Below, piece after piece: positions 12,202-16,814 of a stretch of DNA of 20,468 bases. Under the pieces are notes generated by a model, which was not told where the DNA came from, made no database searches, and was given only the letters and a program-made list of their open reading frames with translations. The stretch covers positions 1-20,468 of IMG/VR virus record IMGVR_UViG_3300047446_000117; one strand, given 5' to 3'. A program made the translations under genes and the position numbers. The stretch comes from a virus. The first letter of the stretch is position 1. Every line of letters begins with the position of its first letter.

Positions 12202-12684
12202 TTAGCTGGCTCGACGCAACTTTGACGCAGCTTTGAGGAGACTTTGAGGTAAAGCTCCCTGACCAGCGGTAAGCCACTTTCGCGCCCCAGACCGATCAGC
12301 CAGCACATGCAGTAGTCGGAGATGAAGGCTATGCACCCAGTCATAGTAGGTCTGCTTTGCGCGGGACCGGGACCCGACCAGGTGCAACTGCATCAGCCAC
12401 GTCGGCGCCGAGTCATCGGTATAACGCAGCACCGCCAGACGCTCCAGCATCTGCCCGCGCTCATCCTGGCGACCCACCTCAGCCAGAGCCGCCGCGACTT
12501 CTTGCGCAACAGCATCAATGCCAGCACCGCCGTCGAGAAGGCTACGCGGTCCAGGCGTGCCACGCGGCGCGCATCCACCCCACTCCATAATCGTGGCCAT
12601 CGGGCTGCCCAAACCACCGGCAGAGCCACAGCGGCGCGTTTGCTCGCCCCAATGCTTCAACAGAGTTTCCATTTCTTCGATCAT
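12202..12684 (-). CDS. Putative late antiterminator, phage Q-like
   Basis: A 160-residue protein starting MIEEMETLLKHWGEQTRRCG; the start is chosen because GGAG lies a few bases upstream and the frame to its left is made of the repeat array. The pattern LLKHWGEQTR followed by GLGSPMATIMEWGG, a variable linker and then a helical part with MLERLAVLRYTDDSAPTWLMQLHLVGSRSRAKQTYYDWVHSLHLRLLHVL resembles the architecture of lambdoid antitermination Q relatives: a WG-containing N-helix, then a sigma-like helix-turn-helix. Position after replication and before lysis is the usual Q position. It would let polymerase pass the terminators of the late block. The assignment is by pattern and place. Confidence 0.5.
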   Translation of the reverse strand: MIEEMETLLKHWGEQTRRCGSAGGLGSPMATIMEWGGCAPRGTPGPRSLLDGGAGIDAVAQEVAAALAEVGRQDERGQMLERLAVLRYTDDSAPTWLMQLHLVGSRSRAKQTYYDWVHSLHLRLLHVLADRSGARKWLTAGQGALPQSLLKAASKLRRAS

Positions 12685-13012
12685 CGCTCCGCTCCCCCGC
12701 TCAAAACCCAACCCGACACAAAAAACACCATACTCAACACAAACCCAACACACCTAAAACCCTTTAAATTCATTAGCTTTAAGCCAAACGTGTTGAGTGT
12801 GTTGGCTGTGTTGGGTTTAACGGTTCTCGCATAAGAAAAAAAACTTGCTTCCATGGATTCAAAGAACGTCGCGCATGCGCATGCGCGACGCCAAACCCAA
12901 CACACCCAACACACCAGGCGCAAAGCCTCGAAATAGAAGGTTTTAAATTGTGTGGGGTATCGAAAACCAACCCAACACACACCCGACACACCCAACACAC
13001 TTTTAGTCGGAT
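12685..13012. other. Candidate replication origin: 9-bp iteron array with central palindrome
   Basis: This 328-bp noncoding stretch holds eleven copies of the 9-mer CCCAACACA or one- to two-base variants: 12712, 12733, 12744 (direct), 12789, 12798, 12807 (inverted, exactly tandem), 12896, 12905 (direct, tandem), 12971, 12982 and 12991 (direct). Steps are mostly 9 or 11 bases. Between the inverted and second direct group is a 24-bp perfect palindrome (12867-12890). AT-rich tracts at 12755-12783 and an A8 run at 12836-12843 could open easily. It abuts the end of the PrimPol-helicase gene, so the helicase or its partner is the likely reader, as P4 alpha reads its ori iterons. The origin role is inferred from structure and place. 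Confidence 0.6.
12867..12890. repeat. 24-bp perfect palindrome inside the iteron array
   Basis: The half CGTCGCGCATGC (12867-12878) is followed immediately by its reverse complement GCATGCGCGACG. It has no spacer and contains two GCATGC boxes. No T-run follows, so it is not a simple terminator; a cruciform or a binding site for a dimeric protein is more likely. Confidence 0.9.
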
Positions 13013-15703
13013 TCATGCTGCAGCCGCCTTGATGTGGTCCCAGTTGTCGACGTTCCAACCCGCCAGGCGCGCCGCAGCCCGCCAAGCAACCACCGTCTTG
13101 CCCAGGTCGGCCGACCCGAGTGATGGGGGCTGGGAAGCCTGCTCATCGCGTGGAAAAAAGAACGCCGCGAACTTGCGATTGCTGCCATCGGTCCAGGGGA
13201 TGGCTCGGGTCTTATCCACCTCCGAGCTGATGAACAACGAGAACTTCGTCTGACTCATCACATGCTCTTTATTGCGGTGGCACCACTCCAGGAACATCGC
13301 GTAGAGGTCGGACGTCAAACAGGCACCCCACAACTCACGCCCAAGCTCGCCGTACTGCCACAGGAACAAGAAAGTCTGCCAGCTGGCTCGACTCAATCCC
13401 ACCAACCGCTCACGGGCATCAGTGCTTGGCGGCCTGGTGCGCTGGTCGAAGTCGCCCAGGTCAATGGACAACAACCACGCATAAAGCGCCGCCACACCAC
13501 CGTTCTCCAGCTCCCGACCAACGGCCTTCTGACGCTCCACCGGCAAAGTCTCCATCGGCCACAACACCAGCATTCGCCGATCACTCGGCGCGATCGGCCA
13601 CGGCATAATCTCGTTACTGAGAAAAGCGGCGTTCATGTGGTTGGCTTCCTCCCAACCGTTGATGAACTTCGATTCCATGCGCACCGTTTTGCCGGTCACC
13701 AGGTGCTTGATCTTGCCCACCTGGTTGTAACGCTGGTCACGGCTTACTACCTCTTCGAACACCGCCCACAACTTGCGGCTTTGCCAGGCGTTGAAGTTGC
13801 TTTCGAGCTGAGTCTGCCCGACCGTGGCCGCGTACTGCCCATAGAGCAAACCGAAGGCATCGGCGAACAACAGACTTTTTCCCGAGCCCTCCATGGTCGA
13901 GTGAGCCAGCACCGCCGTATCCATCTTGGCGCCCAGATGCTGCAACGGGTACGCCAACCACTTCACCAGCCAACCGTGTGACGACTGGTCGTGGTTGCAC
14001 AGGAATGAAATCAACCACCGAAGGTTCTCGCACGCGGCATCATCACGCGCCGGCTCCATGGGCAGTCCGTCGAACGTGTTGATGTAAATGTTGGGATCTT
14101 TGGTCATCGTCGGGTCGAACACGATGTTCTCCACGTCGACCACGCGCCGCTCCGGGCTGTTCAACCACATACCGTACATATCACCGAGGGCCATCTTGAC
14201 GGCGCCTTCGGCAACACGCCGCTTCTTTTCCCGGTCCCAAACGTCCTTGGTACCGTCGATATACACGTAACGTTCAATCGGCTCCAGGTTTAGCGCGCCA
14301 CCCTTCTTGCCGGCCATCTTGCGGGCTTGCTCGATCTCTCTGACCTTGTCATCCGAGATCAGCTTTTTGCTGGTGTCGTCGACCCACTGTTTCGCCAATG
14401 GCTTGCCGACACGAGCCTCAAACGCGGTTTTCTTCATCACCCGCGCCTTGTCGAGATCCCACACTTGCGTGGTTCCTTCGACCAGCACGTAACGCCGCAG
14501 CACCTGCTCATAGGTCAGCACCTCCCCCGCTCCCCCGTCAGCAGCAGGAGCGGCCTCACTTGGCGCAGCGCTGGAGTCCTGCTCGCTGGCATCCGACGAT
14601 GGGGCCGGGGGAAGATCTTGTGGGGCTGGGCGCGATGCGTGCTGCATACCCAACATCCGAGCGGCGTCCTTCACTGCCTTCGACTGGTCGCCATCGTGGT
14701 CTAGCAGGCAAAACACCTCAAACGCGTCATTCTGGTGGCCGTTGGCCAACGGATCCGCACCATGGTGCGAATAGACCTTGCGGTCGGTGACCGTCACACC
14801 GGGCAGTCCGGTGCTGCTGTGTGGATACAGCCATTTGTTACCACGCTTAATGTAATCGTGAGCGCGCAACAGCTCCTCCACGTCGTGGCACCGATTGAAC
14901 TCATCAATCACCGACGGTTTGCCGTCAGCGGGTGGAGTACGCTTGATAGGTTTCGCAGCGGGCTTCTTCGGTTTTGGCGCCCAAGGGCACGCGGCCTCGG
15001 CGTTGCGCTTGAACACATCCCAATTCTGCCAAATGTTCAGCAGCTCGTTGGTAAGCACCGGCAGACCATCAGCAGCATTCGGCGGAGTGCGCCAGGTGTA
15101 CGGCTTGCCAGTACCCGGATGGATCGATGGTGGGAACACGTCCTGCACCAAGCCGGCGCGCAGTTCAAACACCGTGAAGCGCTTGTATTCGTCGGCCTCG
15201 GCCTTGGCTGCCTCTTCACCGACAGTATCGCCCTGCTCTTTCGCGGCCTTGGCCCGCGCCATCAACCCTTTGTGAATCGACCCGTCAGGGTCTTTCTCAT
15301 TGGGCCAGGAAAGCGAGTGTCGCGTCAGCTCGATATCGTCCGGCATTTTGAACAGCACGCGGAACCGCATCGGATTACCCACGATGGTCGGATAGACCAC
15401 GGCCATTGCATCCAGATCGAGGCCCATTTGGTCGAACAACACAAACCGCGTCCACTGTACATCGTCCACGTCCAACGAGCAGACACGACTGGGCCCGAGC
15501 ACTACGCCCAAGTTGTGATTTGGATTGCGTTGCCAGAATGCTTCGGCGTCAACCGGGTCGGTGATGTAACCGCCCGGCTTGTTCCAGCCCATGCCCTTCG
15601 GCGCCTTTTCGCCCGGATCAATCGGGACCAGGGCTAGGTTAAAGGTTTCAATGTAGCGGCGAGCCCAGGACGATATCGCTGTGCTGGTGGATTGCTCACT
15701 CAT
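13013..15703 (-). CDS. Phage replication protein: PrimPol primase-polymerase plus SF3 helicase
   Basis: An 896-residue protein. Residues about 12-210 are an archaeo-eukaryotic primase-polymerase domain: NLALVPIDPGEKAPKGMGW, the metal motif SLDVDD (D78, D80, D81) and the SIHPGTGKPYTW motif with His195. The C-terminal part is a D5-like superfamily 3 helicase: Walker A EGSGKS (605-610), Walker B AVFEE (647-651), sensor FLSNE (694-698) and arginine finger SDRR (707-710). Between them lies a duplicated module (see findings). It should prime and unwind phage DNA at the adjacent origin. The start at 15703 sits in an ATGA overlap with the zinc-finger gene, with GGGAG upstream; a longer frame to 15793 only repeats that gene in another frame. 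Confidence 0.9.
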   Translation of the reverse strand: MSEQSTSTAISSWARRYIETFNLALVPIDPGEKAPKGMGWNKPGGYITDPVDAEAFWQRNPNHNLGVVLGPSRVCSLDVDDVQWTRFVLFDQMGLDLDAMAVVYPTIVGNPMRFRVLFKMPDDIELTRHSLSWPNEKDPDGSIHKGLMARAKAAKEQGDTVGEEAAKAEADEYKRFTVFELRAGLVQDVFPPSIHPGTGKPYTWRTPPNAADGLPVLTNELLNIWQNWDVFKRNAEAACPWAPKPKKPAAKPIKRTPPADGKPSVIDEFNRCHDVEELLRAHDYIKRGNKWLYPHSSTGLPGVTVTDRKVYSHHGADPLANGHQNDAFEVFCLLDHDGDQSKAVKDAARMLGMQHASRPAPQDLPPAPSSDASEQDSSAAPSEAAPAADGGAGEVLTYEQVLRRYVLVEGTTQVWDLDKARVMKKTAFEARVGKPLAKQWVDDTSKKLISDDKVREIEQARKMAGKKGGALNLEPIERYVYIDGTKDVWDREKKRRVAEGAVKMALGDMYGMWLNSPERRVVDVENIVFDPTMTKDPNIYINTFDGLPMEPARDDAACENLRWLISFLCNHDQSSHGWLVKWLAYPLQHLGAKMDTAVLAHSTMEGSGKSLLFADAFGLLYGQYAATVGQTQLESNFNAWQSRKLWAVFEEVVSRDQRYNQVGKIKHLVTGKTVRMESKFINGWEEANHMNAAFLSNEIMPWPIAPSDRRMLVLWPMETLPVERQKAVGRELENGGVAALYAWLLSIDLGDFDQRTRPPSTDARERLVGLSRASWQTFLFLWQYGELGRELWGACLTSDLYAMFLEWCHRNKEHVMSQTKFSLFISSEVDKTRAIPWTDGSNRKFAAFFFPRDEQASQPPSLGSADLGKTVVAWRAAARLAGWNVDNWDHIKAAAA

Positions 15704-15903
15704 CGCCGCCGCTCCCGCAACCCCTGGCAACTGACGCAGGTAGCACAACCCTGGATCGTCTGCTGACGAAGTAACGGGATAGGCTCGTCGCAATCCTCAC
15801 AGAATTGCGCGCTGACGGAGCACGTTGGGCGCGGACGGCTCGCCAGTGCAAGCTGTCGGAAATGTTCAGCAGCATCGTTGGCGATATCGATATCATCAGA
15901 CAT
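15700..15903 (-). CDS. TraR/DksA-type C4 zinc-finger protein
   Basis: A 67-residue protein starting MSDDIDIANDAAEHF. A short helix is followed by C35-x2-C38 ... C56-x2-C59, the exact spacing of the DksA/TraR zinc finger, with two extra Cys (28 and 53) nearby. TraR-type phage proteins bind the RNA polymerase secondary channel and mimic DksA with ppGpp, shifting host transcription; this one has the length and N-terminal acidic residues (DDIDIAND) for that role. It overlaps the CII gene by eight bases and the primase gene by four, so it is translated with early replication genes. Confidence 0.8.
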   Translation of the reverse strand: MSDDIDIANDAAEHFRQLALASRPRPTCSVSAQFCEDCDEPIPLLRQQTIQGCATCVSCQGLRERRR

Positions 15904-16384
15904 TGTCAGCGCCCTCCATAGCCTTGCGCGCACCAGCCATGATGCCCAGCACCTCGCGGATAACATCCATACCACGCTGCTCCAGCTGGAGGACTTCGTG
16001 GGGCTCCCAGATGTTGTCGGCGGCGCCGTCGTGCATGCAGGCCACGAACTGGCCTGACTCCTCGAGCATCTTGCCGACGGCCTTCAATGCATCAGCAGTT
16101 GCCGGCACCGGTATTGGCTTGTACCAAACGGCACCCGCCGGCCTGACCAGCGCATCCAACAGGCAAGGATCGGCGGTCAGCCTGATCACCTCTTCCATTT
16201 CGTCAGGATCCAGCCACCGCCGCTCTTCATCGTGCTTAACCTTCTTCTGCAGGCTGTCGTAATCGAGCACCATGTCGAGCGCCAAAGCGGTCACGCCGCC
16301 CCGGTAATCATGGGCCGCGCGATAGATAGCTTTGCGCAGAGAAAGAACCGGCCCAGCGGCCGGTGATTGATCTGTTCGACTCAT
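15896..16384 (-). CDS. Phage regulator CII, CP76 family
   Basis: A 162-residue protein. The N-terminal part reads LSLRKAIYRAAHDYRGGVTALALDMVLDYDSLQKKVKHDEERRWLDPDEMEEVIRLTAD, the signature of the CII/CP76 proteins of P2-like and 186-like phages: a helix-turn-helix in which GGVTALALDM-DYDSLQKKV is the recognition unit, followed by LDPDEMEEVIRLT. The rest is helical and less conserved. In 186 the CII protein activates lysogeny transcription at an early promoter. Here it lies directly downstream of cro in the early leftward operon. Its start codon follows a small hairpin that may gate translation. Confidence 0.75.
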   Translation of the reverse strand: MSRTDQSPAAGPVLSLRKAIYRAAHDYRGGVTALALDMVLDYDSLQKKVKHDEERRWLDPDEMEEVIRLTADPCLLDALVRPAGAVWYKPIPVPATADALKAVGKMLEESGQFVACMHDGAADNIWEPHEVLQLEQRGMDVIREVLGIMAGARKAMEGADNV

Positions 16385-16523: not shown

Positions 16524-16733
16524 TTATGCCGCCGCTGGCTTGCGGCGAGATCCGATCGGACGGATCTCAAATGCCGAACAGGTACCGTCCGCGTTCGTCT
16601 TAACCCAAATGTCTCTATCAGAGCTGAGCATTTGCGATACCGCGCTTTGAGAAACCTTGAGCAACAGAGCCAGCTCAGGTTGCGTTTTGCCCTTTGCGAA
16701 CAATCGCAAAGGAGCACCAATATTGTTTTCCAT
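16524..16733 (-). CDS. cro: Cro-type repressor
   Basis: A 69-residue protein starting MENNIGAPLRLFAKGKTQPELALLL. KTQPELALLLKVSQSAVSQML is a helix-turn-helix with recognition helix SQSAVSQML, and the C-terminal IWVKTNADGTCSAFEIRPIG is the beta strand pair used by Cro for dimerisation. Start chosen for AAGGAAGG just upstream. It is divergent from the cI-type gene, separated by 118 bases that contain both promoters, and is the first gene of the leftward early operon (cro, cII, zinc finger, primase). It should repress cI expression and commit to lytic growth. Confidence 0.85.
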   Translation of the reverse strand: MENNIGAPLRLFAKGKTQPELALLLKVSQSAVSQMLSSDRDIWVKTNADGTCSAFEIRPIGSRRKPAAA

Positions 16734-16764
16734 CCTTCCTTCCCCGAATGGGATTCGCACAAGG

Positions 16765-16793
16765 ATATTAGTGTGACTTCTAAAATTGCGCAA
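16765..16793 (-). promoter_or_regulatory. Early leftward promoter for cro (PR-like)
   Basis: On the minus strand TTGCGC (16793-16788), 17 bases, then TAATAT (16770-16765). The spacing is ideal and the -10 is close to consensus. Transcription would start near 16758, giving a short leader before the cro ATG at 16733. Confidence 0.65.
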
Positions 16794-16814
16794 CAAGAAA
16801 TAGACGTCCAGCTG

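Follow-up and report, generated by a model that had tools for sequence, protein, structure and literature searches.

A short noncoding stretch filled with repeats follows a primase-helicase gene in a viral genome fragment, and the question is what these repeats are for and which protein reads them. The window, i.e. the whole stretch of DNA analysed, corresponds to an entire IMG/VR record (20,468 bases). Pfam searches identified a lambda-type portal, a Clp-like protease, an S24 repressor, and Cro-like (16524-16796) and CII-like (15896-16384) early regulators among its products, which implies that the window is a fragment of a temperate tailed phage. The repeats are situated between the stop codon (13013) of a PrimPol-SF3 helicase gene, encoding about 896 amino acids on the minus strand (13013..15703), and the probable ATG (12684) of the next gene, also on the minus strand (12202..12684). 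The latter belongs to PHROG 4300, a group with no assigned function. It is found directly after the array in most of the Pseudomonas relatives, and its product is very divergent compared with the helicase, down to about 30% identity. The array is located downstream of the helicase gene, not upstream, and begins about 14 bases past the stop codon. The stretch is very probably the replication origin of this Pseudomonas phage, and its iterons would be bound by the adjacent PrimPol-helicase through its C-terminal winged helix, with helicase rings formed on two arms.

The initial annotation described a dense array of 9-mers at this site, and the array is real. Eleven copies of CCCAACACA with no more than one mismatch, six of them exact, were found within 288 bases (12712-12999), whereas 200 dinucleotide shuffles of this region gave a mean of 0.41 and a maximum of 3. 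The rest of the 20,468-base window holds one more exact copy. On the coding strand of the helicase gene the repeat reads TGTGTTGGG. From the helicase side the order is three outer copies, an inverted near-copy, the arm 1 pair, an 80-bp spacer, the inverted arm 2 pair, and three more outer copies. The outer helicase-proximal iterons are CCCGACACA and CCCAACACA, exactly tandem on the plus strand at 12982..12999 (the minus strand reads TGTGTTGGG, and the offset is kept in nearly all of the 76 homologues described below), and an exact copy on the plus strand at 12971..12979. The single inverted near-iteron (12949..12957, minus strand) keeps its position in most homologues. The core of the array is formed by two tandem pairs that face each other with about 80 bp between them. 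Inner arm 1, at 12896..12913 on the plus strand, consists of two exact tandem iterons, (CCCAACACA)2, and defines the two-armed pattern used in the searches. Inner arm 2 consists of two tandem inverted iterons at 12798..12815 on the minus strand, one exact (12807-12815) and one with a single mismatch (12798-12806). Three inverted tandem copies had been claimed for 12789-12815, and this is true for two of them; the third, at 12789-12797, is degenerate, with two mismatches in the window and a better copy in some homologues. The outer distal iterons, all on the plus strand, are found at 12744..12752 (exact), 12733..12741 and 12712..12720 (one mismatch each).

Homologues of the helicase were picked from IMG/VR by protein alone, which gave 80 viral loci, 76 of them with enough sequence. 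The presence of the array beside homologous helicase genes had been put forward as a check of the idea that this is a candidate phage origin with two iteron arms around an AT-rich region, and the idea is upheld: the array was found in the same place in 76 of 76 loci, at nearly identical distances from the stop codon that mostly agree to the base. The iterons are the best conserved stretches of the locus alignment and the DNA between them is variable. When the doubled 9-mer was used as the query, 118 further loci were obtained, 112 of them with the helicase adjoining, and for the remaining six the retrieved sequence ends at the array.

In several phages the array is accompanied by a helicase with a highly identical C-terminal half and a different N-terminal half. 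In PG1 and pAN the helicase is conserved only in the C-terminal half, with 78% identity over residues 396-896, and the array is 72% identical, which implies that the array moves together with the C-terminal half of the protein, not the primase half. This speaks against the possibility that the iteron words are start sites for primers made by the PrimPol, instead of binding sites for the helicase. Such a role has precedents, as the PrimPol of NrS-1 requires an 8-nt template sequence (PMC7102993), and the SCCmec primase prefers starts that resemble the origin repeats (PMC7581432). However, the array is kept where the primase half differs, facing tandem arms at a fixed spacing fit the assembly of a protein better, and we regard primer start sites as a most improbable explanation.

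The close relatives L030 and L078 carry TGTGCAGGG in place of the CCCAACACA-type word, and a search with TGTGCAGGG returned arrays of the same plan behind helicases of only 32-43% identity. In L078 the first 75 bases after the helicase gene contain seven outer copies of TGTGCAGGG, nearly all with 9-bp spacing, as compared to the usual three. A general pattern was formulated as two copies of TGTGNNGGG, 68-98 bp, and two copies of CCCNNCACA, that is TGTG-NN-GGG with a locus-specific NN, and it matches the window at 12807-12913. The pattern has at least 120 viral matches and is present in 34 genome contigs, and at least 193 fetched loci show the two-armed geometry. The same pattern read backwards gave 0 matches in 2.9 million viral contigs. 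The genome contigs are mostly from Pseudomonas, and the others include Marinobacter, Methylobacter, Comamonadaceae, Noviherbaspirillum, Thermomonas, Methylocystis, Actinomadura, Ruminococcus, a Clostridia MAG and a Chloroflexi MAG, so that the pattern also reaches Actinomycetota, Bacillota and Chloroflexota.

A profile search found the helicase in 171 of the 193 pattern loci, and in 169 of these the gene is oriented towards the pattern, its end being 50-150 bp away. Among the eight genome loci without a profile match, four have a D5_N-type SF3 helicase and one a VapE-like helicase beside the array, two have the array close to the end of the stretch, and the last one, L409, has the two-armed pattern and no recognisable helicase, the only such exception among the loci inspected. 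The link of the arrays to D5-like SF3 helicases is near-exclusive. The facing TGTGCAGGG pairs of L409, which is from an Oscillospiraceae MAG, are found at L409:4488-4596 and precede a gene for a protein with a Mu-transposase C-terminal domain.

DUF5906 helicases were also sampled from 349 genomes of two phyla with the repeats disregarded. Whole genomes were used for this sampling, since an alignment of the C-terminal part returned only close relatives. No word was assumed in the repeat test, which looked for a 7-mer repeated on both strands beyond what is seen in shuffles, in the 450 bases after the gene. An array of this kind was found right after the gene for 12 of the 36 sampled helicases. 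The neighbouring control stretches gave 1/36 (final 450 bases of the gene), 0/35 (gene interior) and 0/29 (the 450 bases that come next). The words vary from case to case (GTGGTCA, AGGTAAC, TGGCACA, ATCAGAG and others), and most of the arrays have the plan of facing groups. About two thirds of the sampled helicases had no array by this word-free 7-mer test. TGTGNNGGG is one large family within a wider plan of facing repeat groups.

The protein has an N-terminal AEP Prim-Pol domain (PF09250, E 1.3e-17), a DUF5906/D5-like SF3 helicase domain (PF19263, E 7e-17) and a C-terminal winged helix, and belongs to PHROG 1156, 'DNA primase' (E 3e-122). The C-terminal 505 residues were modelled with AF2 (pLDDT 88). 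Among solved folds, the one nearest to this helicase half is the C-terminal region of the NrS-1 PrimPol-helicase (Z 28.5), and there are further matches to the SaPI5 primase-helicase (Z 17.3), poxvirus D5 and ASFV PrimPol. The winged-helix domain, residues 796-851 (13151..13318, minus strand; AF2 pLDDT 89.6), is the proposed reader of the iterons. A fold search with this domain alone gave generic winged helices, among them those of origin-bound Cdc6/Orc1, at weak scores (Z about 5), and no P4 domain was listed among these weak matches.

The recognition helix of this domain comprises residues 815-827 (13223..13261, minus strand), and residues 818, 822 and 823 tend to change with the core of the iteron. 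A comparison of the TT group (150 proteins) with the CA pair gave 16 discriminating positions; the recognition helix, with its 13 residues, contains three of them (Fisher p 0.006) and the wing another two. In a set of 171 related C-termini, the combination xSL at residues 818/822/823 goes with the core TTG in 159 of 163 cases, HAE with CAG or TAG in 7/7, and HSG with TCA in 1/1. The independent lineages behind these counts are few, HAE being present in two separate long branches and HSG in one. A near-pair is also available, L318 (core CA) and the CC group, which are about 83-93% identical and have nine consistent differences, including Gln/Met at the equivalent of position 818 in the recognition helix and four in the wing or close to it. 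The exceptions L092 and L177, which have TAAGG inner arms and the usual QSL helix, led to the rejection of a strict one-residue recognition code. Taken as a tendency, the correlated change of iteron core and recognition helix suggests that the helicase itself reads the repeats, in agreement with the earlier proposal of the PrimPol-helicase as the likely reader.

The iterons of a locus also tend to agree with each other, since the middle dinucleotide NN is the same in 0.70 of the pairs within a locus, as compared to 0.35 expected. In the first 245 bases after the gene of L092 and L177, the inner arms are TGTGTAAGG on both sides and the outer helicase-side repeats are still TGTGTTGGG; judging from this concerted change, the inner arms evolve as a unit. 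The distal outer iterons of L030, L078 and L393 retain the TT core though the helix and the inner iterons have changed, which suggests that the part matched to the protein is the inner arms and the helicase-side repeats.

Another early protein could of course be the reader. The iterons would then still belong to an origin, and the helicase would be brought in as a second step, in the manner of lambda O/P or plasmid Rep/DnaB. CII-like and Cro-like regulators are encoded nearby, and among known arrangements the most common is a dedicated initiator that binds the iterons. This is quite improbable in view of the co-variation of helix and iteron and the adjacency of the array to the helicase across phyla, and the helicase has the fold of self-loading initiators. 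It is also conceivable that the repeats are a control region for the PHROG 4300 gene, or a terminator region, bound by a phage regulator and not by the helicase. The array is directly upstream of this gene, which may encode an antiterminator (Halomonas phage H4907 has a relative of 30% identity with the annotation 'antitermination protein'). In P4 a terminator is situated between alpha and crr, and in L030 and L078 the TT core is retained by the three distal outer iterons despite the changed helicase-side iterons. Contrary to what a control region would lead one to expect, the core of the iteron co-varies with the recognition helix of the helicase, and the array is also found in other phyla and behind helicases without a detectable PHROG 4300 relative. 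Furthermore, no sigma-70 promoter-like site was found in the stretch, and a terminator scan of it gave one terminator-like site, as compared to 1.0 expected. A control region is in our view improbable.

If the stretch is an origin read by the helicase, the process can be pictured as follows. The helicase made from the adjacent gene would bind the 9-bp iterons through its C-terminal winged helix, and several subunits would line up on each of the two facing arms. Two helicase rings could then form head to head, one per arm, so that the helicase loads itself. The DNA between the arms, which consists of the alternating purine-pyrimidine tract and the AT-rich stretch next to it, would open, and the fused PrimPol domain would then lay the first primers.

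The proposed site of strand opening is the 80-bp spacer between the inner arms (12816..12895), which has a GC-rich alternating tract by arm 1 and is AT-rich towards arm 2. Across the loci the spacers are 63-105 bp long, mostly 80-95, with AT fractions by quarter of 0.33, 0.53, 0.61 and 0.56. A perfect 24-bp palindrome reported at 12867-12890, inside the spacer and beside arm 1, was confirmed, and its length is far above that of any other palindrome of the window, the second longest having 14 bp. It contains an 18-bp run of alternating purines and pyrimidines (12870-12887). The perfect palindrome is absent from all homologues examined. In 78 divergent spacers the longest alternating run has a mean length of 17.9 bp, whereas dinucleotide shuffles reach 8.9 and 80-base pieces cut from the window 6.3. 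Its usual starting point is close to arm 1, within the first fifth of the spacer. As far as can be read from these spacers, the conserved feature is the alternating purine-pyrimidine tract and the palindrome is its local form, which can be explained by the fact that alternating runs easily become self-complementary. The more distant helicases of the repeat-blind sample lack long alternating runs, which implies that the tract belongs to the DUF5906-PrimPol branch. The tract may play a role in strand opening.

The palindrome had also been proposed as a cruciform or dimer site, which is not borne out, since it is perfect only in the window and the spacers of this class fold no better than shuffles (mean z -0.37 for the TT class). 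The spacers of the CA class fold slightly better (-1.7), and no consistent hairpin was found in them. A conserved cruciform or terminator was rejected as well, the perfect copy being unique to the window among the homologues. By arm 2 there is a conserved CTCGCAT element (ATGCGAG on the minus strand) together with an A/T run, at 12826..12843; the sequence at 12826-12835, CTCGCATAAG, is not an iteron. ATGCGA is present in 136/165 spacers of this class and the element is conserved in most homologues.

The layout can be compared with that of several known systems. The SaPI and PICI islands also have an SF3-type initiator helicase and an origin immediately 3' of its gene (PMC6092414, PMC7581432), and the C-terminal domains of SaPI Rep and of Cch2 bind iterons directly downstream of their genes (PMC7581432). 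The likeness described here is one of organisation. The window has the SF3-type initiator helicase gene (PF19263, and the structural match to SaPI5), the putative origin immediately 3' of it, as in the 76 homologues, and the two facing arms and the AT-rich half of the spacer. The differences are that the primase is an AEP PrimPol, that there is an alternating purine-pyrimidine tract on the inner side of one arm, and that the carrier is a phage; a satellite misses a full set of virion genes of its own, whereas the window encodes the lambda-type portal and the Clp-like protease. The SCCmec Cch2 protein is similarly a D5-family helicase, with a C-terminal domain that binds direct repeats just behind its gene (PMC7581432), but SCCmec has three AAGTG repeats at the putative origin instead of two facing arms, and its primase is a separate protein.

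P4 has a primase-helicase, alpha, and iterons on both strands, and its crr follows directly after the alpha gene with tandem repeats spaced 9 bp, an arrangement also seen in the window. The initial annotation stated that the 9-mer differs from the P4 iteron, and rightly so, as the P4 repeats read TGTTCACC and those of the window are of the TGTGNNGGG type, TGTGTTGGG; membership of the P4 family by iteron sequence was rejected on this ground. The primase of alpha is of the Toprim type (PMC4234260) as compared to the PF09250 AEP Prim-Pol of the window, the origin (ori1) and crr are split in P4, and the inner gaps of P4 are shorter. A sequence comparison of the winged helix with the C-terminus of P4 alpha gave no meaningful match. 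ORF904 of pRN1 has the same order of PrimPol, SF3 helicase and winged helix in one protein, and an origin downstream of the gene (PMC4234260), but this origin is a 100-nt stem-loop without iterons, whereas the class of the window has conserved iterons and no conserved stem-loop (spacer folding z about -0.4). The NrS-1 genome has two copies of the 8-nt priming site (PMC7102993), and no such iteron array is mentioned in the part of that account used here. By analogy, the origin proposed here would work as in the SaPI/PICI islands, and distantly like P4.

The description of the origin as a new type is accordingly true only in part. It stands apart by new iterons, the PrimPol fusion and the occurrence in a full-size phage, and the organisation is shared with SaPI/PICI (PMC6092414, PMC7581432). 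The working principle is already known, and the layout had so far been described chiefly for small parasitic DNA islands. The search covered the open (non-subscription) literature and gave no earlier description of the iteron sequence. Nor did it show an account of the iteron family, of its presence in full-size phages from several phyla, of the fused PrimPol, of the alternating tract or of the correlation of helix and iteron. These phages appear to be a counter-example to an origin layout found only in PICI, and a layout reported as unique to the PICI islands would be extended to full-size phages in several phyla. For hundreds of phages and prophages with a gene annotated as 'DNA primase' next to noncoding DNA, a candidate origin, exact candidate binding sites and a candidate reader can now be named. 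The conserved alternating purine-pyrimidine tract is a new candidate for the place where the DNA opens, and origin recognition by an SF3 initiator could become addressable by the exchange of two or three residues and a dinucleotide.

More tentatively, with the chances somewhat below even, a large share of the phage D5-like SF3 helicases could carry their own origin directly behind the gene in a conserved two-armed geometry. The iteron word would vary freely and be read by a few recognition-helix residues, and in the DUF5906-PrimPol branch the alternating tract would be a Z-DNA-prone opening element. If so, origins would be predictable from sequence, and a set of orthogonal replicons would be at hand.

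The TGTGNNGGG motif was not found in the relatives L320, L321 and L323. One of these, Halomonas phage H4907 (L321), has a different array at the same place, behind the helicase (L321:4742-4983), made up of TCAGACA repeats with a spacing of about 12 bp, and between the groups of TCAGACA repeats there is an alternating CG tract, CGCGCGCGTGCGC.
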